Virus record (IMG/VR): IMGVR_UViG_3300021075_000322
Coordinates: 1 to 38,341 of that record
Direction: 5' to 3' (one strand)
DNA: 38,341 nt
DNA from: a virus
Positions within the stretch are counted from its first letter, which is position 1; every line of letters begins with the position of its first letter. The position numbers and the translations under genes were made by a program. Below, piece after piece: positions 8,132-38,341 of the stretch. Below the pieces are notes generated by a model. It worked only from the letters and a program-made list of their open reading frames with translations. It did no database searches and was not told the origin of the DNA.

Positions 8132-9627
8132 ACAAGTGGTGAACCATCTAAACAAAAAGGGCGTTTCGTATCCGCAAATCCAGAAATAGAATACGGTCCC
8201 AATACATACTGAATTGTGGCATCCTGAACGACGCGTGACGACTCCAAAAGGTGTACACTTTCAGAAAGCGTTTTTTGGTTTGCGTTCACGCTTAACGACT
8301 CATTTGCCAGTATTTTTTCCGCAATGCTGTAGTACTGGTTTATGGTTCCTGTGGAATCGGTGGCAGTGTTTTGCGTATTCAAAAGCCTTGCCAAAATCCC
8401 CGCCGTATCTACTTCCTCCGCAGATGCAATGGTCACGCTGGTCTCCAGTTTTTGGGTGGAAAAAAATCGACTCGAAGTCCGTTGCACATAAAAATATTGC
8501 GAGAATCCTAAAACGCTGTCCGTCACTTTTATTTTTTGCCCCGCCCTAAACCCCGTCTCTGTCGTTTTAAAACTTCCACTATACGATTCCCCCGCATACC
8601 GTGCCAATTCTGCTTGGGCATACCGTTTGGCAGAGACAATGGTTTTCAGAGAAGTATTTTTTATCTTTTTCGGTAAAATCTCATATTTTGCAATCGAAAG
8701 AGGATCCAGAACTTTTACGAGCACCGGCAGTTTTTGGTATCCCGAAACAACGATGGCTTGCCCAGCAGTCGGCTTATTATCTGAGCGGAATACTATCTTT
8801 TTCCCCGGGTAGTCATACAACGCGTCAAATGCCGTCGCATCGCTTAGCCCATTTGTCCCCACGGTTTTACTCACTCCCGCAACGGTCAACGAAATCCCAG
8901 AGTATTTTTCCAAAATCGAGTATTCCGTACTCGTTCCGTCTGCCGTAATGGTCGGTTCGGTGTATACCGCATTCCCGTCGTATTCGTCTCCCTCTACCAC
9001 CAACAAATTCACAATCTTGTCCCCCTGCTCGGTCAAGTTCAGGCTGTCTTTCGTCATGATGGCGTTTGTTTCCGTTACCTCGTACGGCGCCACCTCACTC
9101 CCGGGCAAAAAGAAATGAATGTTTTTGGAAGCGTCGATATAAAAGTTGTACGCCACGCGGTTGGCAAGGTCTGTCAAAAAATCCGTAAATTTTACATGCC
9201 CATAAAAGGCATAATCAATTACTTCCGCGCAATTCACATTGGTCGTCGTAAAGCCCGAAAGCTGTGGGTACCGGATCACCACATCGGCAATAATGGCGTT
9301 CACCGTCATGTTTTTGTAGATCTCCGCTATCAAATCTCCTTTGTTGGCGTCTCTGCTCCAGTCAATCGCTTCCACGGCATACCTCCGAATGTTTACAGAA
9401 AAACGAGAAGGAGACACCTTCAAAACCCGTCCAGAAAATTTCACTACGCTATCAATGGTCAACACCACTGCACTATCTACAGTGGGGGCTATTGCCGTGG
9501 CGTCGGTCGTTTGCAGTGTAAAGTGCATTCCATCTGGCTTCCCGTAGTGGTCGGTGCTCCACTCAAAACTATCTCGCACTAAAAACGCCGTTCGGTCTAC
9601 GCCGGCAACGGTTAAGCTTATGGTCAT
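8128..9627 (-). CDS. Tail hub / baseplate tip protein
   Basis: This 499-residue protein lies directly after the tape measure gene and is coupled to it by ATGA (9624-9627), where siphophages encode distal-tail and hub proteins. N-terminal strands (LTVAGVDRTAFLVRDSFEWS) and repeated SLTVAGVxxT segments suggest beta-rich tail-tip domains. KTTETGFRAGQKIKVTDSVL resembles hub proteins of the gp27/gpD type. One copy of the palindromic GTGTACAC repeat falls inside its coding sequence, translated as SVHLLES. Confidence 0.7.
   Translation of the reverse strand: MTISLTVAGVDRTAFLVRDSFEWSTDHYGKPDGMHFTLQTTDATAIAPTVDSAVVLTIDSVVKFSGRVLKVSPSRFSVNIRRYAVEAIDWSRDANKGDLIAEIYKNMTVNAIIADVVIRYPQLSGFTTTNVNCAEVIDYAFYGHVKFTDFLTDLANRVAYNFYIDASKNIHFFLPGSEVAPYEVTETNAIMTKDSLNLTEQGDKIVNLLVVEGDEYDGNAVYTEPTITADGTSTEYSILEKYSGISLTVAGVSKTVGTNGLSDATAFDALYDYPGKKIVFRSDNKPTAGQAIVVSGYQKLPVLVKVLDPLSIAKYEILPKKIKNTSLKTIVSAKRYAQAELARYAGESYSGSFKTTETGFRAGQKIKVTDSVLGFSQYFYVQRTSSRFFSTQKLETSVTIASAEEVDTAGILARLLNTQNTATDSTGTINQYYSIAEKILANESLSVNANQKTLSESVHLLESSRVVQDATIQYVLGPYSISGFADTKRPFCLDGSPLV
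8245..8263 (+). repeat. GTGTACAC palindromic repeat, copy 1
   Basis: CCAAAAGGTGTACACTTTC is identical over 19 bases to the copies at 14502 and 21200. This copy lies in the coding sequence of the hub gene, 114 bases upstream of the next gene's start. All copies have the same orientation. Confidence 0.8.
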
Positions 9628-16468: not shown

Positions 16469-17413
16469 TTATCGAACTCCAGCGATAACATACGCCGTTT
16501 TTGGTTCAATAACCTTCAGATCAAATTCTTCTTTTGCGTAGATGAATTGTCCTTCTGGGTCTTCTTGCATCTGTCCTTCCAAAATCTGTCGAGTAGGCGT
16601 TACTCGAGGACGGTAGCATTTTCCGAATGAGTAGCTCTTCTCTGTTGGTTCTTGTTCTACATATCCAACGAATACCGAAGAGTTCCAGATAGGAGCAAGA
16701 GTATCCGCAGCACCTTTTAGTGCAGAGTTATACATCGCGTCTCCTACAATAAGATTTGTAATTCCAAAAATAGCTCCCATCTGAGATGCTAATAATTCAT
16801 AAGATACAAAGTCTTTCCCTGGAAATCTTGCAAGAATATCAGGGTGAACAATAAGTTCTTGCAGTGCGAACCATCCAATAGCCATAGTATTTGGTGTGAA
16901 TCCGGAATTTGTTTTTATGAGCTGCACCGCGGTTTTTACATCTTTAATAGGATGAGAAGCTCCTGAAGTAGAATCACTCCATTTTGCAGTCCCAGAAAGC
17001 GTGGTATTCTGTGTGATAACAGAAGTGTTGGTCGCTGCATCAGCAATCAATTTTTCTAATCCTACTTGGAATTTTCCGGTCAAGTTCCACGCTGCATCTG
17101 TCTTTGGACGAATTGGAAGATCCGCTTCTTCAATTTCTTTTTTGGTAACCAGCTGTTTCAGTCTGTAGTCCTTAATATCAAAAAACGCCCCAATGGATAC
17201 TTGCATACTCACTTCAGGAGAAGGAGCATTAAACGCAATTGGTGTTGTATCAATACGAAGATTCTCAGCTCCGTATGTTGCAATTTGTCCAGTTCGTTTA
17301 TTCGTTAAAACGGTAGGGAATATTTTGTCGCCGATGAATTTAAATCCGTTATGATTATACCCGAGGGATTGGTCGGTAAGCAGAGGTGAGACTCTGAGCG
17401 AGGTAGGTAACAT
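16469..17413 (-). CDS. Major capsid protein
   Basis: This 314-residue protein is probably of the HK97 fold. It follows the protease/scaffold and decoration genes, as expected. Residues about 85-125 (FFDIKDYRLKQLVTKKEIEE) fit a spine-helix region. AIGWFALQELIVHPDILARF and GKDFVSYELLASQMGAIFGI, then the C-terminal EGQFIYAKEEFDLKVIEPKT block, match phage major capsid proteins of Mu-like modules. The 71 bases between this gene and the next hold only the leader of that gene. Confidence 0.85.
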   Translation of the reverse strand: MLPTSLRVSPLLTDQSLGYNHNGFKFIGDKIFPTVLTNKRTGQIATYGAENLRIDTTPIAFNAPSPEVSMQVSIGAFFDIKDYRLKQLVTKKEIEEADLPIRPKTDAAWNLTGKFQVGLEKLIADAATNTSVITQNTTLSGTAKWSDSTSGASHPIKDVKTAVQLIKTNSGFTPNTMAIGWFALQELIVHPDILARFPGKDFVSYELLASQMGAIFGITNLIVGDAMYNSALKGAADTLAPIWNSSVFVGYVEQEPTEKSYSFGKCYRPRVTPTRQILEGQMQEDPEGQFIYAKEEFDLKVIEPKTAYVIAGVR

Positions 17414-17438
17414 AGATTTTTAGTGAAGGAATGAAAAA

Positions 17439-17804
17439 TTAGATCTTGAAGTTTGTGAGAAATACTTTTATGTATTGCCCAGCCGTAGTAGCCGCAGTAA
17501 GAGCAATACCGCGTACAGTATTAGCAGCTGTTACGGTAGTAATTGCTTTCCCTGCTGTTGTAGCCGTTACTTTGTCTCCAATGGCAATAGCAGCAGAAGC
17601 CTCAACTTCAGCACATCCTTCGTGTTGAAGTGCAACAGGACTTCCACTCGTAGCGGACTCAAGTGTCACTCCAAGAATAATATCGGTGCCGGCAGTAGCG
17701 TGAATTCCAGATTCCGCTCCGGTCCCGAGCTTCACAAATCGTGCTTTCACAACATCTGCTTCGGTTTTTACGGAGAATACTGGTTCTTTAGAAATGGTAC
17801 TCAT
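17439..17804 (-). CDS. Capsid decoration/cement protein (DUF2190-like)
   Basis: This 121-residue Ala/Thr/Gly-rich beta protein contains VVKARFVKLGTGAESGIHAT, ILGVTLESATSGSPVALQHE and AIGDKVTATTAGK. These are the pattern of DUF2190/head decoration proteins, which stabilise the capsid surface. It lies between protease/scaffold and the major capsid gene. Confidence 0.8.
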   Translation of the reverse strand: MSTISKEPVFSVKTEADVVKARFVKLGTGAESGIHATAGTDIILGVTLESATSGSPVALQHEGCAEVEASAAIAIGDKVTATTAGKAITTVTAANTVRGIALTAATTAGQYIKVFLTNFKI

Positions 17805-17833
17805 AGGTTTTTTGGTAAGGGAATAAAAAAGTT

Positions 17834-18451
17834 TTACAAAGTCTTTGCCATGTCAGGCTGTGCTTTATAAAAAGCCTCCTGAAGAGTGGTAATAGACGCC
17901 GATGGGTTTTTGGAAAGGAACTCCGTCTTAAAAGCAGCGTATGCACTGTCGGAATCAACCCCATCTCCTTTGGATGATCCCATTTCAGAGAGATTGATTC
18001 CGGGCAAAGCCTCCCAAGATGCAAAAACCGCATCAGACTGAGCCAGAGAAAGAGACATCAAAAGCGAAACATTCTTCTCAATGTCTTTGGGAAGTACCTT
18101 CCCAACCTTTGAGAGTTCGGTAACGCGTGCCACCTCTGACTTTTTTCGAGCATCAAGTTCCATTGCCTCCATTCTCTTCTTCGTTTCTGCCAATTCTGCT
18201 CGTGCCTGAGAAAGTTCTAATGCAGTAGCGAAATCTTTAGAAGCATCCGTAGGAGCTGGAACAACTGGAGTAGTCGGTGCAGGAGGTGTTGATTCCTCAA
18301 TTTTTGCCTCTACTTCAGCAACCTGAGTTTCAATTTCTGCTTTTTCATCATCTGAAAGACACGCACACGCGGTCTTTAACAATGAGAATTCCGAAGCAGT
18401 AACGGACTTCTTCCCAGCAAGGGAAGCAAGAAGTGTTTTAAGAACTTCCAT
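17834..18451 (-). CDS. Nested in-frame scaffold gene (Mu gpZ-like)
   Basis: An internal ATG at 18451 begins MEVLKTLLASLAGKKSVTAS and would give a 205-residue scaffold sharing its end with the protease. This ATG is preceded by TATTACCCCTTTTCCC, the same leader type used before independent genes here. That is the main reason to call it a real start. In Mu, scaffold Z is made from an internal start in protease gene I in the same way (established knowledge). Confidence 0.7.
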   Translation of the reverse strand: MEVLKTLLASLAGKKSVTASEFSLLKTACACLSDDEKAEIETQVAEVEAKIEESTPPAPTTPVVPAPTDASKDFATALELSQARAELAETKKRMEAMELDARKKSEVARVTELSKVGKVLPKDIEKNVSLLMSLSLAQSDAVFASWEALPGINLSEMGSSKGDGVDSDSAYAAFKTEFLSKNPSASITTLQEAFYKAQPDMAKTL

Positions 18452-18985
18452 GGGAAAAGGGGTAATAGAATTGGAAAATTTGGTTGGCTTATCAGCACCA
18501 CTCGCTTCTACGGCTTTCATGCCGGATACAAAGGGAATGTTGGTGAGCGCCGCACCGGTCAACACATTGTTGTATTGCTTTTTTGTTTCGTCGTCTTCCC
18601 ACACCCAAGATATTTCGGCAGAAATATATCTCCATTCTCCGTCTCTAATAGATTCCCTTGCTTTTGGTGTCCAATTCACAAGACCCCAAAGAGAATCCTC
18701 TCGAATCTCGAGTTCTGTAATCCATCCCGCAGCTTCTTCGCACCGCTCATGTCCGTAGTTCAATTGCAATTCGTTTATAGATTGTCTCAAAACATTTTTC
18801 TTGAAGTTCTTTACAAAATCATCAAGGTGCATTTTGGTAACGAGAAACTGTTTATAACTTTCACTCCAATCTCCTACGCGGATAATCTCCGTCCAAAATG
18901 GTGCATCTCCTTCAGAGAGTTCAATTTTTCTCTTATTACTGAGGTATGCAGTATTTTTCGGTGGTGTAATCGTTTTCTTATTCAT
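17834..18985 (-). CDS. Mu-like prohead protease (gpI type) with C-terminal scaffold region
   Basis: This 383-residue protein matures the prohead. The N-terminal approx. 170 residues match the Mu I protease family: QLNYGHERCEEAAGWITELE, DSLWGLVNWTPKARESIRDG, EWRYISAEI and TGAALTNIPFVSGM. The C-terminal approx. 205 residues are helical, with Glu/Ala-rich coiled coil and a Pro/Thr linker, as in scaffolds. The start at 18985 follows TTTATTTTTTACCC and lies 14 bases after the portal stop; the longer upstream reading overlaps the portal gene. A nested scaffold gene starts in frame at 18451. Confidence 0.85.
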   Translation of the reverse strand: MNKKTITPPKNTAYLSNKRKIELSEGDAPFWTEIIRVGDWSESYKQFLVTKMHLDDFVKNFKKNVLRQSINELQLNYGHERCEEAAGWITELEIREDSLWGLVNWTPKARESIRDGEWRYISAEISWVWEDDETKKQYNNVLTGAALTNIPFVSGMKAVEASGADKPTKFSNSITPFPMEVLKTLLASLAGKKSVTASEFSLLKTACACLSDDEKAEIETQVAEVEAKIEESTPPAPTTPVVPAPTDASKDFATALELSQARAELAETKKRMEAMELDARKKSEVARVTELSKVGKVLPKDIEKNVSLLMSLSLAQSDAVFASWEALPGINLSEMGSSKGDGVDSDSAYAAFKTEFLSKNPSASITTLQEAFYKAQPDMAKTL

Positions 18986-18999
18986 GGGTAAAAAATAAA

Positions 19000-21144
19000 T
19001 TATTTTTTGGTAATTTTCGCAGCAGGAGAATCCGGAGAAACGGGCATTGCTGTCTTCGGTTGTAAATATGGCCATGGTTTCCCTTTATACAGATCCTTTA
19101 TTTCTTTTGGGACTCCGGTCTCTGCTGGCTTTCCTACTTCACTCCGTAAAATAGCCACCAACCGAGACCGGCAACGATAATGGAGTGGTGGTTTTGGAAG
19201 ATCTGCAGCATCCTTCGATACTCGACCGTCCAACGACGCACAAAGAGGAGAAGTCCTTGCATCTAAAATTGCCGAATATTCCCAGCCCCATATTTCGGAC
19301 TGAAAATTTTCGTACACCGTTCCAATCCCTTGGTTTACTCCACCCGTTACAAGAATTGGCACCAGATTCTCAATTTGCATCACTGCCCGTGCATCCATTG
19401 CTTTCTTGGCAATCGCAATAGCACCCGCACTTTCCCCCGCACGGATTGCATTTTGAGTATTCAAAACTGCCTCATTCTTAACATCCTCAGCGTGTTTTTC
19501 TGCCAAAGCGTACGAATGGTCTTTGATAAAATTCTTGTCTGCCTCCGGTGTGGGGATCCGCCCACTCTTCCCCATTTCTCGTATTGCCTCAGTTTTCCCA
19601 AACTCATACGAAGCCATGTACGCCTTCTCAATTTCCATTTGCATGGCATAAATCTCTTGCGTCAAAACCGTAACGGGGACGGTCACACTTCCACCGTTTG
19701 CAATCTGTCCGGAAAGATAATCCGCAATGCGATTCTTCATGACTTCGGAATGGGTCTCCAAAATCTTCTGAACTTCTTTTTCGTGTGCATCAAAAAATTT
19801 CTGGAGTTTCGTCCAATCCACCTTGTCCTCTGCGAGTGTAAGAGACCTTTTGGAAAGAAATGTTCCGTGAGAGTGTCCATCATGCGACGCATCTGCCCCG
19901 TCTTCTTCTTTTTGTCCTGCTGGCTCTGGCAAAGGCGTTGCTTCTTCCGATTTTTCCGGCAGTTTCATCATTCCTCGAATCATGTTTTCTGTCGTATCGT
20001 CGGCCGTCAACATTCCCGCATCGGCAAGAGTCTTAATAATTTGCGAAAGTTTTTCCATCTTGTTTCTCCCAATATCGGAAACCGTCAAAGTGGGGTATTT
20101 TTCAACCCCATCAAAATTCAGATCTACAATTTCCCTCACCAATTCTCTTTGCACAGCCTCCGCAATATATTCCGCCGTCGCTTGAGCCGACATAAACGCC
20201 AAATCCTGCTGAGAGTCGTTCTGGGCATTCCCTCCTTTCTCAATTCCAATACTCAAAAACTGCATCAATGCCGATTTCTCAATTTGCCGGTCGTGGTGGT
20301 TTATTCCGGGCTCAAAATCAAACTCTCCACCACCCACTGTTTTAAACGAGAATTCAACGCCTCCTTTTTCTAAAATATACGCCTCCTCACTGCTTCTAAT
20401 GTTCTTCAGCGTCAAAATTGTATCTGCCTCCTCTTCCTCACTTGGCATTTTTCCTTCTGGAAACTTTGCGGCCGGTATTCCCGTTCCACTTCTCTCCGCT
20501 CCAATTGCTTGGATTTTGTAGAAATTCTCTTTGTACACCCAGTGCTTGTATGCCGCCCTCAAAATCGAAACTCCTTCGTAGTTGTCTCCTTCTTGGTGTA
20601 ACGCCAAGTGAAAAATCTTCCATGCTGGTATTTCCAACTGCTGCATCATACCATCTTTCATGGCGTACTGTGTTATTCCAGCACTTCCATCTTTCAACTG
20701 CCACCTCAAAATACTTTTTGGCAATCTTGGTGCCAATTTTGAGTACATCAATTCCGTACCCATCACTTCATAACACTTCTCAAAATTCATAAACCCAAAA
20801 TCCAGCATCAAAAGAGAGTGTCTCAAAAAATCACGCCATACCAATTTCTCAAAAAACTGGCGTTCGCAGAATTCCGCAATCTGTATGTCTTTCTCGTCTT
20901 CACTCGCGGGTACAAAACTCCACTTTGCCCCCAGTATCGGTCCTTTACACGCCGAAATCACTCCCGCTACCGTTCCATCTCCCTTCCTCATTTTATCGTA
21001 CACGGAGATACAGTTCGGGAAAGTGAGTTCTGGATTGTAGTCTTCGTTAATAAACCCCGCATACTTCGTAGTTCCAGATCCTCCTAATTCCATTGTCAAT
21101 TCTTTCGTCTTTGCCGGCAAAATGCTTTCGTCTGTAGTAAGCAA
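19000..21144 (-). CDS. Portal protein (DUF935) fused to MuF-like head morphogenesis domain
   Basis: This is a 714-residue protein. Residues about 20-400 match the Mu gp29/DUF935 portal family: ISVYDKMRKGDGTVAGVISA, RDFLRHSLLMLDFGFMNFEK and GINHHDRQIEKSALMQFLSI. After an acidic/His linker (EEDGADASHDGHSHG), residues about 430-714 include the MuF motif SAILDARTSPLCASLDGRV, then PPLHYRCRSRLV. Portal and MuF are separate genes in Mu. The reading starts with TTG at 21144, preceded by TTAACTTACTCCC; an ATG at 21096 (MELGGSGTTKYAG) is an alternative. Confidence 0.88.
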   Translation of the reverse strand: MLTTDESILPAKTKELTMELGGSGTTKYAGFINEDYNPELTFPNCISVYDKMRKGDGTVAGVISACKGPILGAKWSFVPASEDEKDIQIAEFCERQFFEKLVWRDFLRHSLLMLDFGFMNFEKCYEVMGTELMYSKLAPRLPKSILRWQLKDGSAGITQYAMKDGMMQQLEIPAWKIFHLALHQEGDNYEGVSILRAAYKHWVYKENFYKIQAIGAERSGTGIPAAKFPEGKMPSEEEEADTILTLKNIRSSEEAYILEKGGVEFSFKTVGGGEFDFEPGINHHDRQIEKSALMQFLSIGIEKGGNAQNDSQQDLAFMSAQATAEYIAEAVQRELVREIVDLNFDGVEKYPTLTVSDIGRNKMEKLSQIIKTLADAGMLTADDTTENMIRGMMKLPEKSEEATPLPEPAGQKEEDGADASHDGHSHGTFLSKRSLTLAEDKVDWTKLQKFFDAHEKEVQKILETHSEVMKNRIADYLSGQIANGGSVTVPVTVLTQEIYAMQMEIEKAYMASYEFGKTEAIREMGKSGRIPTPEADKNFIKDHSYALAEKHAEDVKNEAVLNTQNAIRAGESAGAIAIAKKAMDARAVMQIENLVPILVTGGVNQGIGTVYENFQSEIWGWEYSAILDARTSPLCASLDGRVSKDAADLPKPPLHYRCRSRLVAILRSEVGKPAETGVPKEIKDLYKGKPWPYLQPKTAMPVSPDSPAAKITKK

Positions 21145-21199
21145 GGGAGTAAGTTAATCGCTCCCCGTATTGTCAAGCGGTAAACCATAAAACGGAATG

Positions 21200-21218
21200 C
21201 CAAAAGGTGTACACTTTC
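21200..21218 (+). repeat. GTGTACAC palindromic repeat, copy 3
   Basis: CCAAAAGGTGTACACTTTC is identical to the copies at 8245 and 14502. It lies in the 79-base gap between the terminase stop (21224) and the portal start (21144). Confidence 0.85.
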
Positions 21219-21223
21219 AAAGG

Positions 21224-22570
21224 TTAAAAAGTGCGATTACGAAGCCCAGCCGTAACCATCCCACTCGTATTTTCCCGGTCTTTATCTTTCGGTCTTTCGT
21301 ACTTTGCATTCCATACCGAAAGACCGATTTTCATCATGCAAACATAGCGTGCCGCGTCAATACAATGATTAAACGCATCAATGGGCTCATTGATAGTATT
21401 TCCCTCTTTGTCAGTCTTCCATTTGTACCGCTGAAACTCTTTCCGAAGATTTATTGACCGTGCCGTTACATGAATCGGTTTCTGCTTCATCACCGAAATA
21501 CCGTAATTTATAGAATCCGCGCCTTTCCGTACCGCGTGCACATTCCACCCCATCCGAAAGAGTTCCTCAATACTTTTCGGCTCCGCAGAATCTGCAATAA
21601 TTTCTGCAGACCGAGAAACAAATTTTTCTTTCATTTTTTCAGCAATATCTGAGTTCGTCAGACCGTACTCGTAAAACACCTCGTCCAAAAATATTCCATC
21701 ACTATTCATGGCGACACGAATAAACGGACTCGGGTCATTCGTAAATCCAAAATCGAGCCCATACCCCAAAAGTTTTGCGTTCTCCGGCATCTCATCCACC
21801 ACCGTAATATTTTGGAATACCAACCCCGTAATTTTCCCATAGTTCCCATTCCCAAAAACTTCCCAGAGTTGCTTGTCTACTTTTTGGAGGTATTCAATCT
21901 CCTCCACTTCCGTATCCGAAAGAAACGGATTGTCTCGGTATGTCGAAACAATCACATCCACATCGCCCTTCTCAACGGCACGCTTCATCTCGAGTTCTTT
22001 GTTGATCCACACTTGCTCATCGTCAGGATTAAAATCGATGATCACTTTGTATTTTGTTCGAAAATTGAGTTGGTGAAACTCATTGTAAGTAATCTCATTC
22101 GCCTCATTCGGGTAGAGTATATCTTGCTTCATTCCTCTCGCTTTTTGGATGTCATCGATACCGGAAAAAATAATCTTCCGTGCTCCGTACTCAATAATTC
22201 GGTCCGACTTGTTGTGATGCACTCGACTATAAAGACTTTCCCCATTTGTGTTTTCTATATCCACTGGCGTAGAAGTAAGAACGGATAAAATATCAGCCAT
22301 TACTGTACCTTTCAGAGTTGCCCCATACTTCCGAATTATACGAAAAACACCGCTCTCCATAGGAGCCTCTCCTTCCATCCATTCCCCAGTAAAAAGCCAA
22401 TTTACTGCATACTGAGAAATAGAATATGTTTTTCCAGACCTTGTTCCTCCACGGTTTATAGTAATTCGTTTTTTGCTTTTATAGTTTTTGATATAGACGG
22501 GAGTGACCTCCATTACTGGAATAAAGCCGTCAATCTTCTGTACTTTTCGTGGTCTTCCTCGTGGCTTCAT
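21224..22570 (-). CDS. terL: Terminase large subunit
   Basis: This 448-residue DNA-packaging motor has a Walker A motif GGTRSGKT (residues 41-48) and the ATPase segment KQDILYPNEANEITYNEFHQ. It also has the C-terminal nuclease, with LGYGLDFGFTNDPSPF, IIADSAEPKSIEELFRMGWN and DAFNHCIDAARY supplying acidic residues. The pattern is of the PBSX-type large subunit. The first residues, MKPRGRPRKVQ, are AT-hook-like and overlap the small subunit gene by 41 bases; a start at MEVTPVYIKN is a shorter alternative. Confidence 0.95.
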   Translation of the reverse strand: MKPRGRPRKVQKIDGFIPVMEVTPVYIKNYKSKKRITINRGGTRSGKTYSISQYAVNWLFTGEWMEGEAPMESGVFRIIRKYGATLKGTVMADILSVLTSTPVDIENTNGESLYSRVHHNKSDRIIEYGARKIIFSGIDDIQKARGMKQDILYPNEANEITYNEFHQLNFRTKYKVIIDFNPDDEQVWINKELEMKRAVEKGDVDVIVSTYRDNPFLSDTEVEEIEYLQKVDKQLWEVFGNGNYGKITGLVFQNITVVDEMPENAKLLGYGLDFGFTNDPSPFIRVAMNSDGIFLDEVFYEYGLTNSDIAEKMKEKFVSRSAEIIADSAEPKSIEELFRMGWNVHAVRKGADSINYGISVMKQKPIHVTARSINLRKEFQRYKWKTDKEGNTINEPIDAFNHCIDAARYVCMMKIGLSVWNAKYERPKDKDRENTSGMVTAGLRNRTF

Positions 22571-22948: not shown

Positions 22949-24178
22949 TTAAGAAATCTTCTCCGCCTTTTTTCCCGTAAACTTTTCCCACCGTGAAATA
23001 ATCCGATGGCAATATTTCTGATCCATTTCCATTACTCTAGATTTGCGGCCCGATTGTTCACACGCCATCAAAGTGGATCCACTCCCGCCAAAGAGATCAA
23101 GAACAATAAACCCTTTCTCTGAATGTTTCAAAAGAGCTCGTTCTGCAAGTCTCACGGGTTTTTGTGTGGGGTGAATATATTCCGAAGTAATATCTCGTTT
23201 TTCATACCAAACATCCATTGCGTCTTGATATTCTCCAGCAGTTACAAACGCATCTTTCAAGTTCCTTGGAAACTCCCGGGAAAAATGTTTCTTCCCTTTT
23301 TTCCATCCCAAAAGGCAAGGCTCGTAGCAATGGTGGTAGTCCTGAGACTTCGCCAAAACCATAGACTCTTTCAACCAAATAAGCGTCTGAGAAATTTTCC
23401 ATCCCGTTTTTTGGAATGCTTGAAAAGAATTGTGGTGCTGCGAGTGTGCAAACCACCAATACAAAACGGCAGAATCTTCCGATACCTCGTAAATATTTTT
23501 GAGAACGGAAGTATAAAACTCAACGCACTCCGCATCGCTTTTGTCATCGTTTAAAATTGTTCCGTTCGCGGACGCGTATTTTCCGGTGTTGTAACTCGCA
23601 CCGTCTGGAGAATGGTAGTCGACATTGTACGGAGGGTCTGTAAATACCAGCTGTGATTTTTCTTCTCCCATAAGCCGCAAAACATCCTCTCGAGAAGTGC
23701 TATCCCCGCACATCAATCGGTGCTCACCGAGTTTATAAATATCTCCGCACTGCACCGATACTTTTCCGTTTTCGTCTCTCGTAAAATCATCCTCCGAAAG
23801 CACTAAATCCATTTCAGGGAACTCTACTTCAAGCCCCCAATCACCAAGAACTTTCTCATCAAAAAATTCTTGCAATAAAACTAAGTCAAACTCTCCTCCG
23901 TTCGCGTTTAACCGAATATTCAACTCTTTTTCATCCTCTTCCGACAATTCAACAAAAAAAACGGGAACTGTTTTATTCCCCATCTCTTCCCATACTTTTA
24001 CCCGTTGGTGTCCACCAATGATAATATTCAATCCGTCTTTGGAGTTCACCACAATTGGATCCACAAAGCCAAACTTCTCAAGGCTCTTTTTTAAATGCTC
24101 CTTCTGCAGGAGTGAAATTTTCCGCGGATTGTATTTTGCTGGAGATAAAGCCGATATTAAGATTTCTTGAATTTCCAT
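22949..24178 (-). CDS. ParB-like domain fused to DNA (adenine-N6/cytosine-N4) methyltransferase
   Basis: This 409-residue protein has two domains. Residues about 1-90 match ParB/Srx-type nuclease domains (SPAKYNPRKISLLQKEHLKK, then IIIGGHQRVKVWEEMG). The rest is a beta-class methyltransferase with catalytic DPPY (181-184, TDPPYNVDY), SEYIHPTQKPVRLAERALLK and the AdoMet loop LDLFGGSGSTL. No restriction partner lies beside it. In phages such orphan enzymes protect DNA from host restriction. It is immediately upstream of the terminase genes. Confidence 0.92.
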   Translation of the reverse strand: MEIQEILISALSPAKYNPRKISLLQKEHLKKSLEKFGFVDPIVVNSKDGLNIIIGGHQRVKVWEEMGNKTVPVFFVELSEEDEKELNIRLNANGGEFDLVLLQEFFDEKVLGDWGLEVEFPEMDLVLSEDDFTRDENGKVSVQCGDIYKLGEHRLMCGDSTSREDVLRLMGEEKSQLVFTDPPYNVDYHSPDGASYNTGKYASANGTILNDDKSDAECVEFYTSVLKNIYEVSEDSAVLYWWFAHSQHHNSFQAFQKTGWKISQTLIWLKESMVLAKSQDYHHCYEPCLLGWKKGKKHFSREFPRNLKDAFVTAGEYQDAMDVWYEKRDITSEYIHPTQKPVRLAERALLKHSEKGFIVLDLFGGSGSTLMACEQSGRKSRVMEMDQKYCHRIISRWEKFTGKKAEKIS

Positions 24179-27932: not shown

Positions 27933-30900
27933 TTAAATAATAGAAATCTTGGAAACTCCATCCCTCTTCTCCACAAAAATCTTCGTGTCAAACGCATCTT
28001 TTATCTCGTCGATGTGCGTCACCGCCAACACCTTCTCAAACTCCTCACTCACCATCTGCACCGCAGAAATAAAGGCACTGCGTCCTTCGTCATCCAACGC
28101 CCCAAATCCTTCGTCAATAAGCAAGAAACGAACCTTCGTTCCTACTCTTCGGGCAAGGATTTTTGAGAGAGCAATCCGAATGGAAAAATTCACCCGAAAA
28201 GCCTCACCACCGGAAAACATCTCGTATTCCCGCTCTCCGATGTCGTCCTCCACAAAAATATCCAGCGTCTCAATTTGACTGCCTGAAATTTCCAAATCTT
28301 TCTTACTGCCCGATTTTTTCTCACGAAGAGAAGAGAACCGCACCTTCATCCGCCCCCCAGAAATCTTCTCTAAAACATCGTTCGCCTCCTTCTCAATCTC
28401 CGGCAAAACACTCTCAATAATCATCGCAGGCGCTCCTTTTTTTCCACACGCCTCCGCCAAAATATCGTATGCACTGCGCTCCGCAATGTCGCTTTTGTTC
28501 TTATCCAAAAGCTCGGAAAGAGATGCTTTCTTGGATGCAATCTCTTCCAGCTTGTTTCTGTATACCGCAAAGGTTCCTTTTTTTCGGTTTATGGTATCCT
28601 CCAAAACCGTCAACGCATTGCGCAAAGACCGGATTTTCTCCGAGGTCTCTTCGTTCACCTCTGGCAATTCTTTTAGCTTTTGTTCTGCGTCGTCCAAAGA
28701 TGATAACGCCTTCAACTCCTCCGACAAAATTACCCCTTTTCTCATCGCAATTTCAGAAAGCCTCTGTCGGGATACTTCCACTTGCACCCATAAATCCGCT
28801 ACTTTCTTCGCCACTTCCATCTTCTCCGTCACCCCGTCCAGCATTCCTTGGGAGAATATGGGCACTTCACGAATCACGAGATTTTGGAGTTTCTCTTTTG
28901 CCTCTAAAACGGAAGAAGAAAGCCGTGCTAATTCTTCCTCCATGGATTTTTTCGCGGAAGATTCTTCTTGCATAGTTCGAGCAGAAACCTTGCCAAACTC
29001 TACTCTCAACGCAGAAAGCTCCTCCTCAATATCTGCATGAGGACTCTTCTTTTGGTGCGGTTTTCCGGCTCCACAAGTGGGGCAATCCTCTCCTGCTTCT
29101 GCCTGCTTTACTTTCAACGCTTTTCCTCGGGTATTGATTCTTTCTTTTTCTACTCTTGCCCGCTCGTGTATTTCAGCAAGATTCTTTTCTCCCCTCTCTG
29201 TTATGCGTCGGTTCTCTATGTCCGCAGTAGCAATCTTCTCTTCTAACGCTTTTTTGGTCGCAACGGCAGAGGCATTGTCTGCCTCCACTCTCAAAGCTCT
29301 CTCTTTCAAACCCTCTAGAGCCTTTTTTTCCGTCGCCATCTTTTCCAAAGTTTCCACTGCTTTCGCAATTTCGTTTTCTCTCTCTAAAAGCCCCTCCGCG
29401 TGTTCCTGTGCCTCTCCTAATTGCTCCTTCTCCGCCTTCATGCGTTCCAAAGATTCCTTTTCTCGCTTAATACGATTCTCATACTCGTCTTTCTTCACCT
29501 TTGTAACGGTAAAATCCTTCACCGATGCCTCCAATCCTTCAATTTCTGCCCGTTTATATCGAATCACCGCCGTATCTGCCTCAATTTCTTTCTCAAGTCG
29601 TTCTTTTTCGGTCTTTACTTCCTCCTCTTTCTCAATTTCCTGCTCTAATAATTCCTTTTTTGTTTCCACCACCGAGAGCGTCGTATCCAATATTTTCTTC
29701 TCTGCCTTTGCCTTTTCTTCCATTTCCCCCCAAATACTCAAAGAGAGAATTTCAGAAAGAACCTCTTTTCTCTCTGCCGGAGTACTCGCAGAAAACTTGT
29801 CGGCATTTCCTTGCCTCAAATACGCAGAGGACGCAAAAACATCCGCACTCATTCCCACCAGAGAAATAATGGCGTCCTGAGTCTCCTTCATCGTCGGAGC
29901 AGAAATACTCCTCCACTGCCCCGTTGCCCCGTCATTGCGAGGAACGAAGCAATCCACCCCTTCCCGCACATGAAGCTCCAGCATCCCATTCCCCCTCGAA
30001 CCCCTCACACTCCTCTTCCTCAAAATGCGAAATACTTCAGTCCCCACCGCAAACTCAAAATTCACTTCCATATCCGTCTCCCCACTTCTCACGAGCTGAT
30101 CATCACTCTTTGCCCGAGATTCCCCCCAAATCCCCCAAATAATAGCCTCAATAATACTGCTTTTTCCAGCCCCATTTTCACCGGAAAGTACTGCCAAAGA
30201 GAATTTTGAGAAGTCCAAAACAGTTTCTCCGTGGCTCGTAAAATTCTTCAGCGTCAACACTCTCGGAACAAATCCACCATGCCCAGAAGAAGTATTTCCG
30301 GAAGACGAGTTTTTCAAAAGATATCCCGCCTTCTCCAAAAGCATTTCCGTTTCTCCTTTTTTCAATTTCTTTTTCTCGGAGAATTTCTTCAAAATATCCA
30401 AAGGCTCCATCTCCTCAAAACACTCCATCCCCGTGCTTTCTTCTCGGTCGGTTCGTTCAATCTTCTTAATAATCTGATACCAATGAGGATTTTTCCCCGC
30501 AATTTGTTTTTCCAAAGAAGAAATATTAAGGTTTTCCATCTCACTCTTTTTTCCGGTAACAACTAGCTTCACTACTGCATCGCAAATATCCGAAGGGAAA
30601 TTGAGCTCGCCTTCTCCTGCCATAATGTCGTTTGCCGTCGTCTCCACGGTCAAAAACTTCCTCGCTCCGCTTCCTACAAACTCCCACTCTGCCCGCTTTC
30701 CTGCCTCAATTTCTGCCACCACAAACCCTTTCTCTTCTTTCTCCTCCCCAAAATCAATGCGCTCAGGGCTTCCAGAATATACAATATGGTTCTCCACGAC
30801 CGTTTGGTGTCGGTGGATATGCCCAATCGCCGCATAACTCACCTTTGGGTCACAAAACGCCGTGTAAGGAATAACAATATCAGAACCGAGCATTATATCC

Positions 30901-31502
30901 CGTTCCGCCCCAAACTTCGCACCACTCACCGTTGCGTGGGCAACAATAATCAAAGGGAGTGACACATCCGCACTTGCCACCAACACTTCCAAAAGCTCCG
31001 CACCAATGCGAGAAATTCTTTCATTTGCCTCTTCCTTGCTCAACCCCTCAAAATCTCCGTTCTCCATCGCAATACTCCGCGTAATCCAAGGGAGCGTTGC
31101 CACTTGGATTCCATTGATAATAAGAAGCTCAGGACGAGAAGAAACTTTTACGAGATTCTCATCCGCCAAAATCTTGAATATCTCCAAACTGTTCGCTTTC
31201 CCCGAATCATTCGGCGTGTCATGGTTCCCCGTCACAATCAAAACGGGAATCTGGTGTGCCGTAAGCTCACGGATTCTCTTCGCAAATTCTCGTTGCTGGG
31301 TCATGCTGGGGTTTCGGGTCTTAAAAGCATCTCCAGCAAAAACTACGAGATCCACTTTGTCAGAAACTGCCGTTTTTACAATGGTATCAATGGCGTGGCA
31401 GTAGTCAAGAAATCTGGTATTCATGCCCGTAGCAGGGTCAATATGCCCATACTTTTCGCCACTGCCGAAGTGTAAATCACCGAAATGGAGGATTTTTTTC
31501 AT
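27933..31502 (-). CDS. sbcDC: Fused SbcD-SbcC (Mre11-Rad50-type) nuclease/ATPase
   Basis: This is a single 1189-residue protein. The N-terminal approx. 390 residues are SbcD with phosphoesterase motifs GDLH (D9, H11), GDAF (D58), GNHD (93-95), HAT (H189) and GHIH (H228, H230). The remainder is SbcC. It has Walker A GENGAGKSS (441-449) and long coiled coils with a zinc hook CPTC (807-810). The C-terminal ABC signature is FSGGEAFRVNFSIRIALS and Walker B is FLLIDEGFGALDD. SbcCD opens hairpins and processes double-strand ends; normally the two are separate genes. Residues 515-524 come from an inserted repeat. The leader is TTTAACCTCCTCCA before ATG. Confidence 0.95.
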   Translation of the reverse strand: MKKILHFGDLHFGSGEKYGHIDPATGMNTRFLDYCHAIDTIVKTAVSDKVDLVVFAGDAFKTRNPSMTQQREFAKRIRELTAHQIPVLIVTGNHDTPNDSGKANSLEIFKILADENLVKVSSRPELLIINGIQVATLPWITRSIAMENGDFEGLSKEEANERISRIGAELLEVLVASADVSLPLIIVAHATVSGAKFGAERDIMLGSDIVIPYTAFCDPKVSYAAIGHIHRHQTVVENHIVYSGSPERIDFGEEKEEKGFVVAEIEAGKRAEWEFVGSGARKFLTVETTANDIMAGEGELNFPSDICDAVVKLVVTGKKSEMENLNISSLEKQIAGKNPHWYQIIKKIERTDREESTGMECFEEMEPLDILKKFSEKKKLKKGETEMLLEKAGYLLKNSSSGNTSSGHGGFVPRVLTLKNFTSHGETVLDFSKFSLAVLSGENGAGKSSIIEAIIWGIWGESRAKSDDQLVRSGETDMEVNFEFAVGTEVFRILRKRSVRGSRGNGMLELHVREGVDCFVPRNDGATGQWRSISAPTMKETQDAIISLVGMSADVFASSAYLRQGNADKFSASTPAERKEVLSEILSLSIWGEMEEKAKAEKKILDTTLSVVETKKELLEQEIEKEEEVKTEKERLEKEIEADTAVIRYKRAEIEGLEASVKDFTVTKVKKDEYENRIKREKESLERMKAEKEQLGEAQEHAEGLLERENEIAKAVETLEKMATEKKALEGLKERALRVEADNASAVATKKALEEKIATADIENRRITERGEKNLAEIHERARVEKERINTRGKALKVKQAEAGEDCPTCGAGKPHQKKSPHADIEEELSALRVEFGKVSARTMQEESSAKKSMEEELARLSSSVLEAKEKLQNLVIREVPIFSQGMLDGVTEKMEVAKKVADLWVQVEVSRQRLSEIAMRKGVILSEELKALSSLDDAEQKLKELPEVNEETSEKIRSLRNALTVLEDTINRKKGTFAVYRNKLEEIASKKASLSELLDKNKSDIAERSAYDILAEACGKKGAPAMIIESVLPEIEKEANDVLEKISGGRMKVRFSSLREKKSGSKKDLEISGSQIETLDIFVEDDIGEREYEMFSGGEAFRVNFSIRIALSKILARRVGTKVRFLLIDEGFGALDDEGRSAFISAVQMVSEEFEKVLAVTHIDEIKDAFDTKIFVEKRDGVSKISII
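29931..29960. repeat. Dispersed palindromic repeat inserted in frame in sbcDC
   Basis: GTCATTGCGAGGAACGAAGC followed by AATCC is a well-known dispersed repeat core in many bacteria (general knowledge). It has the inverted repeat ATTGC/GCAAT and on the coding strand gives GVDCFVPRND (residues 515-524 of the fusion). It interrupts the region after Walker A without breaking the frame. Confidence 0.75.
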
Positions 31503-36376: not shown

Positions 36377-36868
36377 ATGCCCCCAAAATTTACTACAACC
36401 GAGCTTTTAGAAGAATGGAGTACTCAAAAAATAACGATTGCAACAAAAGAACGAGAGTTTGTTATTTTTGCAGAAAGAGAGGTGTGGATGGCATCTCTCG
36501 GAGAAAATATTGGAGTGGAAATGAATGGAAAAAACTCAAACTTTTCCCGTCCTGTACTTATTTATAGAAAATACAATAAAGAGCAGTGTTTTATTTTCCC
36601 CCTCACTTCACAATATAAAAATGACAAATATCATTTAGATCTTTCTCACATCCCTTTTTTGATGAAGAGCATGGTATCTTTGACTCAAGGACGAACTATA
36701 GACTCAAAACGGCTTATTAGAAAGATGGGGAGGCTCCCCAATAAAGATTTCGAGAATATAAAAAAAACGGCTCTAGGATTCCTAGAGCCTCGGTCGCCTT
36801 TCGGCAATAATGCAGAGACAATGGTACCGAACAAAAACGATAAAGTCAAAAAAACTTTTTCAGAATAG
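36377..36868 (+). CDS. MazF/PemK-like toxin domain protein
   Basis: This 163-residue protein has the PemK/MazF core: REVWMASLGENIGVEMNGKN, FSRPVLIYRKYNKEQCFIFP, LTSQYKNDKYHLDL and SLTQGRTIDSKRLIRKMGRL. Family members cut RNA at short motifs. No antitoxin gene is evident beside it; the N-terminal 40 residues or a host protein might serve. The end (TALGFLEPRSPFGNNAETMV) is encoded by a strong hairpin region and may be a later extension. It lies 12 bases before the integrase. Confidence 0.8.
   Translation: MPPKFTTTELLEEWSTQKITIATKEREFVIFAEREVWMASLGENIGVEMNGKNSNFSRPVLIYRKYNKEQCFIFPLTSQYKNDKYHLDLSHIPFLMKSMVSLTQGRTIDSKRLIRKMGRLPNKDFENIKKTALGFLEPRSPFGNNAETMVPNKNDKVKKTFSE
36769..36789 (-). terminator. 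Minus-facing intrinsic terminator inside the mazF coding sequence
   Basis: GGCTCTAGG and CCTAGAGCC form a perfect 9-bp stem with a 3-base loop. On the minus strand the stem is followed by GTTTTTTTTATA. It therefore terminates leftward transcripts, although no leftward gene is annotated over this stretch. Confidence 0.7.
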
Positions 36869-36880
36869 AAATAAAATAAC

Positions 36881-38341
36881 ATGAAAGTATACGCATACCT
36901 CAGAAAATCAACGGAAGGGGATGAGAACCAAATCCACTCACTCACGACTCAACGCCGTATAGTGGAAGATTTTGCGAACAAAAAAGGACTCCAAATCGAC
37001 GAGTATATCGAAGAAGAAAAGACCGGATTCAAAGCCGGAGTGCGGAAAAAATTCAACGCTATGATGAGGGATTGCACAAAAACTGCCAAGAAAGGGGAAG
37101 AAGCGCATATCATCTTTTGGAAGGTCTCCCGTATAGGAAGGAACCGGAAAGATGCAGACCTCGCACTCGACGCCATGGAGGCAGGTGTACACTTCCATTT
37201 TACGGAGGGTGATTTCCCCGACAACGCCACCGGCAGAAAAATTCTCAGGGACAAACTCTCCGATGCCATATACTATTCCGAAGACCTTTCGGAAAATGTA
37301 AAGGATGGGCAAGAAACATCCATTTCCAAGGGGTTATTCCCCGGGAGTTCCAAGCTCGGGTATCTCACACGCCCAGACCCTACAAAACCCCGCACAATCA
37401 ATCCTGACGAGGCATGGAAAATAAGAGAGGCATTCGAGAGAATTTCTCACGGGGAAAAAATGAAAGAAGTGGTGGAATGGCTCCAAAAATCAGTATACCT
37501 CAAAACATACGGAGGACGGGTAGCGTGCAGAAATACCCTGTACAACCTTTTCCACGATCCGTTTTATTGCGGAAAATTCTTGTGGAATGGGAAAATTTAC
37601 GAGGGAACCCATGAGCCAATTATCAGCAAAGAACTTTTTACAACCGTCCAAGAAATTCTTGAGGGGAATAGAATCCCAAAAGTACAAAAACACATTTTCC
37701 TTTTTTTAGGGATGGTATTTTCGGATGGAGAAAAACTTTCCTGCTCCAAAAACCGAGAAAATTATTATTACCGAAGCAAAAAAACAGGTCTCCATCTCCG
37801 AGAGGAAGAAATAGAAAAATCATTTATCGAGATGCTCCAGGAAACAAATATGAAAGCCTCGTATATCGAAGAGATGCGAGAACGGGCAAAAAATATGCTA
37901 GGAATCCGAAACGAACAAATTTCCAATACCATCGGCATTGAAATGGCAAAGGTCTCCGCAATCCAGAACAGAATGAAAAATGCAGAAGATCTCCTCCTTG
38001 ATGGCAAAATCCCATACGAGAAATACCAAGAAATGGTCGAACGCCTAAAAAAAGAGCAAGCATCTATTCTGGAAGCCATTCCCCAGAAAAACACAAAATC
38101 AGAAGATGAGAAAACAAAGATACTTCACACTGTCATCGAACGCATACAAATCGCATCACGAAGCTACGAAACACTCCCAAAGCATCTCAAATCCCAGTTT
38201 ATTACCGCCATTCTCAGCTCGGTCGAACATTCTACAAACTCTGGGAAGCTAGGTTTAAAGCCTAAAAAAGCAACCCAAAGCGTGTTTGAGTTGCCGTTTG
38301 TCCAATCTGGCTGCCCGGGTTGGGATCGAACCAACGAATGA
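36881..38341 (+). CDS. int: Large serine recombinase (phage integrase)
   Basis: This 486-residue protein starts at ATG 36881. The resolvase-type catalytic domain holds YAYLRKSTEG with Arg8 and nucleophile Ser10, QRRIVEDFANKKG, and KVSRIGRNRKDADLA (Ser83, Arg84, Arg87). The recombinase domain follows (GSSKLGYLTRPDPTKPRTIN to NTLYNLFHDPFYCGKFLWNG). The zinc-ribbon region (GMVFSDGEKLSCSKNRENYY) has a single cysteine and no CxxC pair. A coiled coil follows (about 345-410). The last residues, SGCPGWDRTNE, are encoded by tRNA sequence, and the final codons also hold a minus-facing terminator. Confidence 0.92.
   Translation: MKVYAYLRKSTEGDENQIHSLTTQRRIVEDFANKKGLQIDEYIEEEKTGFKAGVRKKFNAMMRDCTKTAKKGEEAHIIFWKVSRIGRNRKDADLALDAMEAGVHFHFTEGDFPDNATGRKILRDKLSDAIYYSEDLSENVKDGQETSISKGLFPGSSKLGYLTRPDPTKPRTINPDEAWKIREAFERISHGEKMKEVVEWLQKSVYLKTYGGRVACRNTLYNLFHDPFYCGKFLWNGKIYEGTHEPIISKELFTTVQEILEGNRIPKVQKHIFLFLGMVFSDGEKLSCSKNRENYYYRSKKTGLHLREEEIEKSFIEMLQETNMKASYIEEMRERAKNMLGIRNEQISNTIGIEMAKVSAIQNRMKNAEDLLLDGKIPYEKYQEMVERLKKEQASILEAIPQKNTKSEDEKTKILHTVIERIQIASRSYETLPKHLKSQFITAILSSVEHSTNSGKLGLKPKKATQSVFELPFVQSGCPGWDRTNE
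38264..38294 (-). terminator. tRNA terminator inside the integrase 3' end
   Basis: GCAACCCAAA (38270-38279) pairs with TTTGAGTTGC (38285-38294) over 9 of 10 positions. On the minus strand the stem is followed by TTTTTT. It lies 14 bases past the tRNA CCA end and fits as its terminator, while the same bases code for integrase residues on the plus strand. Confidence 0.7.
38308..38341 (-). tRNA. 3' end of tRNA-Gln (partial)
   Basis: On the minus strand: variable-loop CATTC, T-stem GTTGG, loop TTCGATC, stem CCAAC, acceptor strand CCGGGCA, discriminator G, encoded CCA. An acceptor starting with U1 (pairing to the final A), the CATTC variable loop and a G discriminator are all features of tRNA-Gln. 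The anticodon and 5' part lie outside the window, so the identity is inferred. Confidence 0.75.

Follow-up and report, generated by a model that had tools for sequence, protein, structure and literature searches.

The described systems closest to the locus reported here are the ssrA islands of Dehalococcoides, where, at the boundary of the element, the gene of a large serine recombinase, DsiB, and a tRNA-like gene (tmRNA) overlap by their 3' ends. DsiB uses a single target, ssrA, within one genus; insertion is in the T-loop and gives a direct repeat of 20 bp, and the islands also have DsiA, a second, small recombinase (PMC3146451). McMurdie et al. raised in 2011 the question whether full function of DsiB is limited to the circular form (PMC3146451). 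In mycobacteriophages, Bxb1 and Bxz2 use protein-coding genes, and mycobacteriophages with serine integrases are stated not to integrate into tRNA genes (PMC9262239). The zinc-ribbon motif was placed by Rutherford et al. 5 bp nearer the centre in attB than in attP (PMC3783163).

We analysed the linear virus record IMGVR_UViG_3300021075_000322 over its full 38,341 bp (hereafter the window). Our data indicate that it is very probably a prophage that its own large serine integrase has inserted at the 3' end of a tRNA-Gln(TTG) gene; the reading frame of this integrase would span the att site, and its C-terminal tail would be swapped on integration. The behaviour of core, half-sites and tail was seen in relatives and is extended to the window by homology. 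A literature search with partial coverage found no paper that joins serine integrases, tRNA and Patescibacteria.

The integrase gene and the tRNA-Gln end

The integrase has the domain order of large serine recombinases, with PF00239 at residues 3-151 and PF07508 at residues 175-263. The catalytic serine is Ser10 in a YLRKST motif, and the sequence match to the solved A118 integrase structure 4KIS spans residues 173-406. Only serine recombinase domains were found in the protein, and it is not a tyrosine recombinase. By these domains and the A118 match, the enzyme is classed as a large serine integrase. The four cysteines that serve as zinc ribbon ligands in large serine recombinases are missing (P0001 residues ~275-320), although the surrounding domain still aligns. 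They are likewise lost in L007, L075, L076, L078 and L088 and kept in most relatives, so their absence is a loss within the family. If the fold persists, the "zinc ribbon" of the window would be a ribbon without zinc.

The translation terminates in FVQSGCPGWDRTNE, its final residues being SGCPGWDRTNE, and the following TGA (38339-38341) falls inside the 3' half of tRNA-Gln on the opposite strand. The tRNA piece was identified through L002, a Peregrinibacteria MAG contig: window positions 38301-38341 equal L002 3387-3427 in 41/41 nucleotides, and ARAGORN finds a complete tRNA-Gln(TTG) at L002 3394-3468, of which the matching 41 nt are the 3' end. This identity fixes the isotype and strand of the piece in the window. 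As the window includes no more than the 3' part of the tRNA and the remainder lies beyond the record, ARAGORN did not call a whole tRNA there. A search of the genome of L002 found no relatives of the integrase. The first-pass annotation, made from the letters of the window, had proposed that the serine integrase frame ends in a tRNA-Gln gene and that the residues just before are encoded by the terminator of that tRNA, and both statements were borne out. The terminator is a hairpin followed by six U on the tRNA strand. The tRNA-Gln of L002 has a different terminator and shares neither hairpin nor U-run, which indicates that the terminator in the window is element sequence, supplied by the phage. 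Terminator-like sequence was found at this position in 33/57 relatives, compared with 12/114 control windows.

The element can be recognised as a tailed prophage by its head and packaging genes (Table 1). The record closes on the integrase TGA, as expected if a provirus caller trimmed the record at the gene end. The left end of the element, with the other half of attP, lies outside the record, and the window thus comprises most of the prophage. A search at the left end of the window for a direct repeat or a site mimicking the T-loop found none. When IMG/VR was queried with the integrase, the endonuclease and DNA patterns of the window, no close relatives were found, and the terminase gave four matches at 37%. 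In the phage database only distant integrases were found, with identity below 27% among the best rows listed.

Other features of the window were also recorded. A single 1189-aa protein (27933-31502, minus strand) has an SbcD-like phosphoesterase followed by an SbcC-like ATPase, an apparent SbcD-SbcC fusion, and an N6/N4 DNA methylase is fused to a ParB N-terminal domain (22949-24178, minus strand). A repeat of about 22 nt, which contains AAAAGGTGTACACTTTC with the palindromic centre GTGTACAC, occurs in four copies at 8241, 14499, 21197 and 24214. It looks like a common operator or promoter motif.

Table 1. Coordinates of features in the window
Feature	Position	Strand	Basis
Head and packaging genes (major head protein, protease, portal, terminase large subunit)	16469..22570	-	Domain and PHROG matches
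PemK/MazF-like gene, directly upstream of integrase	36377..36868	+	PF02452
Large serine integrase gene, 486 aa	36881..38341	+	PF00239, PF07508, PHROG 95 integrase, A118 integrase 4KIS
Intrinsic terminator for tRNA, antisense within integrase 3' end	38264..38294	-	Hairpin 38270-38294 and six U 38264-38269 (tRNA strand)
Putative phage half of attR (P arm), ~25 bp left of core, encoding integrase residues just before tRNA	38283..38307		Half-site size of large serine recombinases (PMC3783163), element boundaries of relatives
Host tRNA-Gln 3' part, 34 nt (T-arm, acceptor 3' strand, discriminator G, CCA)	38308..38341	-	Identity with L002 3394-3468
Putative att core TGGCTG, last 6 nt of tRNA, crossover within	38308..38313		Homology with mapped ends of relatives
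T-loop GATCGAACC, putative zinc-ribbon-domain motif of attB half-site, 10 nt past core	38324..38332		Window sequence and attB/attP forms of relatives

tRNA overlap and crossover site in related integrases

We queried 192 genomes of the class to which the genome of L002 belongs with the window integrase; 74 were positive, and 3' ends were measured for 90 matching genes. Among 62 evaluable integrases outside a control clade, 56 end at, in or beyond a tRNA on the opposite strand according to ARAGORN: 40 stop inside the tRNA, 15 read through it and one stops 13 nt short. The remaining six do not really depart from this pattern: the integrase of L075 lies against a tmRNA, a group I intron is present at the site in L080, L085 and L091, and inspection by eye shows antisense sequence resembling a tRNA in L028, beside a masked stretch, and a tRNA-type tail in L094. 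In the control clade, a sister clade of serine recombinases from the same survey, 0 of 23 overlap a tRNA, and among serine recombinases of Verrucomicrobiota 0 of 27 end in an opposite tRNA. Only about 5 of about 1,450 other ORFs of the fetched loci end in antisense tRNA or tmRNA. The overlap is therefore not a product of chance. The target tRNAs cover nearly every isotype, and in the tree the trait is spread over the whole family apart from the non-overlapping clade. The window integrase is sister to that of L007, its closest relative (33% identity), which uses tRNA-Glu. Phylum-wide, 18 of 23 further judgeable loci show the overlap by ARAGORN, and Rfam adds another two (intron or cut tRNA). 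This layout is the rule among the large integrases examined in Patescibacteria and not a curiosity. The view in the first-pass annotation that serine integrases rarely use tRNA 3' ends does not hold in this host phylum, in which nearly all large integrases examined do so.

Integrases adjoining a tmRNA (L075) or a group I intron at the target site were seen among L075, L080, L085, L091, L165 and L252, and the introns suggest that intron-bearing tRNA genes are used as targets. The integrase of L007 has an internal TAG and was considered as a pseudogene. This was rejected, since the TAG follows the entry of the integrase frame into the tRNA.

The point of crossover could be read from pairs and mapped ends. 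The integrases of L076 and L081 are 95% identical, in different hosts and beside different cargo (an AAA_21/RloB-like pair versus a 5mC methylase). Their identity ends within TGGTACA, the last 7 nt of tRNA-Arg, and the tRNAs differ beyond it. In a clade with a locatable other end, the element lies in 4/4 cases between direct repeats of 6 nt that reproduce the final 6 nt of the tRNA (TGGCTG, TGGTGG); these four elements with both ends mapped measure about 4.9-8.2 kb. The elements of relatives carry only about 6 nt of tRNA. Crossover in relatives is within the last 6 nt of the tRNA. The core is resolved to this 6-nt shared sequence, and the crossover dinucleotide (2 bp in large serine recombinases) would lie within it. 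The proposal that the attachment point lies in or near the 3' end of the integrase gene was thus mapped in relatives, and for the window it follows by homology. No distal site could be identified for L007 on its 36.8-kb contig. A comparison of synteny within the genus showed that host gene order is rearranged, and no clean syntenic empty site was recovered.

A long displaced tRNA fragment (at least 15 nt), as left by tyrosine integrases, was considered and rejected for relatives, since alignment of their mapped ends revealed none. In some cases several attL-type sites were seen at one tRNA: three at tRNA-His in G183C1 and two at tRNA-Asn in G188C11. G176C1 has an intact junction resembling attP. 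All these are probably tandem islands. In G128C8, G086C2 and G088C14, on the outer, left side of the serine attL and about 100-190 nt from it, there is a 19-20-nt copy of the 3' end of the host tRNA that breaks off at the T-loop. The copy, which is imperfect in G088C14, is possibly the scar of a tyrosine-integrase element.

The two half-sites differ in their distance to the T-loop motif. In relatives the tRNA half-site consists of the core, 10 nt and the T-loop (ATTCGAACC type), whereas the phage half-site consists of the core, 15 nt and a T-loop-like 9-mer. A geometry scan of 29 elements for the core, a variable spacer and the T-loop gave a mean of 2.76 mismatches at spacing 15, compared with 4.2-5.2 at every other spacing. 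Of the 29, 21 had spacing 15 as their best or joint best value, 13 of them with no tie, and with wrong cores the profile was flat and the signal gone. For 23 elements whose phage half was read from a duplicate copy, without a search, spacing 15 gave 2.04 mismatches versus at least 4.9. The 10 and 15 nt in relatives equal the published 5-bp shift between attB and attP, which indicates that the tRNA T-loop is a natural attB motif. The shift is seen in relatives, and the window holds the attB half only. The spacing there is 10 nt, the host form, which identifies the end of the window as the attR of an integrated prophage.

Exchange of the C-terminal tail and alternative explanations

When the circular form was built in silico by joining int, the core and the distal phage end, the integrase end was conserved in 19 elements (WLPILERMRTDW, WSSVVEDVRTNF, WYTLVDILRTDC, WLQLLNKIRTDL and others). 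In the integrated form the same elements have tRNA antisense tails such as WLPRLDSNQ, WSG and WYTR (the latter two ending in a stop) and WLGRRDSNPR. Judged from these reconstructions, integration in relatives is a replacement of the conserved integrase tail by tRNA antisense. The suggestion that integration state could change the C-terminus thus holds in relatives; in the window, the left end of which is outside the record, the swap would touch only residues from ~478 on (CPGWDRTNE) of 486 and would leave the catalytic part unsplit.

The following sequence of events would account for the data. The host would be a Patescibacteria bacterium related to Peregrinibacteria. Its tRNA 3' end would serve as attB: recombination would cross over within the final 6 nt (TGGCTG), and the T-loop GATCGAACC, which is universal, would act at a distance of 10 nt from the core as the motif for the zinc-ribbon domain. 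The phage attP would bear a T-loop mimic 15 nt from the core. The 3' end of the integrase gene would form the phage arm of attP, and its opposite strand would supply the CCA end and a new terminator to the tRNA. On the circle, the integrase frame would cross the att core into the other phage end and encode the conserved C-terminal segment, which in the lysogen would be replaced by antisense-tRNA residues. Most likely the swap disables or alters the integrase after integration and helps to lock the prophage in. The likeliest role of the lost tail is that of a segment needed for full activity, and integration would thereby be self-limiting.

That the site is the tRNA 3' end and the swap has no function, frame and tail being kept by constraint on attP DNA (integrase-binding motifs) and the extra residues tolerated as junk, we regard as unlikely while giving it real weight. 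It would fit the tail residues IRT (ATT CGA ACC), which are a literal translation of the ATTCGAACC motif, and the integrated tails, which vary freely and in some cases continue through more than 100 nt of host DNA. A test in which only the columns of the 15-nt spacer were shuffled also gave a weak result (51/2000 on all, 247/2000 on non-redundant elements). Several features of the reading frame argue against it. The phase of the core TGG is fixed within clades (phase 0 in 47, phase 2 in 9 and phase 1 in none of 56). Spacer entropy follows the codon (1.61/0.94/1.77, lowest at position 2), and stops are rare in frame (3/19 versus 12 and 9 in the other frames). Elements in phase 2, the phase of the window, have other tails that are also shared, such as NLEHL, in frame in L093 and L095, and L088, a member of the code-25 clade with spacing 16 and phase 2, still reads DVRT. 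In the further set read from the duplicate copy, 22/23 elements give a W...[phi](R/I)-type tail.

Two other explanations concern the overlap itself. The tRNA piece could be a phage-borne attP of a free phage, as in tyrosine-integrase phages, and not a host attR. The record is classed as linear and ends at the stop codon, with the DNA beyond outside it, as this explanation would allow, yet it is improbable given the host-form spacing of 10 nt, where the phage halves of relatives have 15, the full identity over 41 nt with a bacterial tRNA locus, and the few nucleotides of tRNA carried by relatives. It is more improbable still, to the point of being hardly credible, that the 3' end of a drifting ORF overlaps a neighbouring tRNA by chance and that the att site lies elsewhere. 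Antisense tRNA frames are often open and give familiar spurious tails of the DSNPR type, but chance would not produce 56/62 overlaps against none in either comparison group and about 5 among the other ORFs, nor would it place the ends of related elements at the tRNA end.

Integration at the tRNA with a swapped tail, the explanation we prefer, can be taken further, as a tentative proposal that may well prove wrong. Serine integrases throughout the phylum would encode a working C-terminal helix across attP, and integration at any tRNA would remove the helix, so that the reaction would limit itself and need no additional directionality factor. One clade would keep in store a complete attP, inverted and upstream of int, with intact C-terminal codons, and inversion of int would restore the tail.

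The inverted copy is an observation in its own right. It lies in a region of about 270-500 nt just upstream of int in one clade (L008, L010, L011, L014, L015, L016, L017, L021, L023, L024, L032, L037, L039, L040, L044 and L045; also G414, G319, G428, G277, G402, G261 and G450). It is absent from the window, in which the PemK/MazF-like gene directly upstream of the integrase leaves no room for it. The copy has three parts: a stretch complementary to the left end of the element, which measures 95-148 nt in the six fully mapped elements, the 6-nt core, and 45-158 nt that are the complement of the int 3' end. In all six of these elements (6/6) the region further contains, inside an inverted repeat of 21-26 nt, pieces of 19-28 nt that are complementary to int positions ~+134 and ~+1331. 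Complementarity stays at 89-100% despite divergence of the elements, and Rfam found no family besides tRNA in the upstream region. The copy may be a store of the intact C-terminus, an antisense RNA or a second attP. An active flip of int between the inverted repeats was considered and rejected: no flipped copy was found, and 62 of 86 integrase matches face the tRNA 3' end and none faces away.

Comparison with known systems

A review states that serine-integrase mycobacteriophages avoid tRNA genes, and among the large integrases examined in Patescibacteria, which are ultra-small bacteria, tRNA targeting is nearly universal. The geometry suggests how this reach might be achieved: the same T-loop lies at the same distance from every tRNA end, and one enzyme design would fit any tRNA. 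This offers ready-made pairs of integrase and attB for genome engineering, and a means of host prediction for phages of Patescibacteria. A C-terminus that spans the att site bears on the long-standing question of how the direction of integrases is controlled.

The Dehalococcoides tmRNA integrase is a partial precedent. The window shares with DsiB a serine integrase 3' end that overlaps a tRNA-like attachment site, but its target is tRNA-Gln, and relatives have a 6-nt core at the CCA end in place of T-loop insertion with a 20-bp repeat. Unlike DsiB, the present family works with one integrase on many tRNA isotypes; it crosses over within the last 6 nt, leaves a 6-nt repeat and encodes a conserved tail on the circle. 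A118, Bxb1 and phiC31 have the same Resolvase and Recombinase domains, the zinc-ribbon motif shifted by 5 bp between attP and attB, and a very short core (PMC3783163, PMC9262239). In contrast to these classical enzymes, here the motif is the T-loop, the integrase gene spans attP, and in the window the zinc ligands are lost. The "suicidal" tyrosine integrases of archaeal SSV-type viruses also have attP inside the integrase gene, and integration changes the integrase (PMC8371274). In that case a tyrosine enzyme is split in two, whereas here the exchange is confined to a short C-terminal tail and spares the catalytic domain. In mycobacteriophage BPs, attP lies in the 3' part of a gene and integration replaces the C-terminus of its product (PMC4557955); there the gene encodes the repressor and the tail specified by the phage acts as a degradation tag, whereas here the gene is that of the integrase and the role of the tail is conjectural. 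Islander-type tRNA islands with tyrosine integrases likewise target the tRNA 3' end, which the element restores (PMC4383910). They differ in enzyme class from the present family, in which a 6-nt repeat and no long displaced tRNA fragment is found at the ends of relatives.
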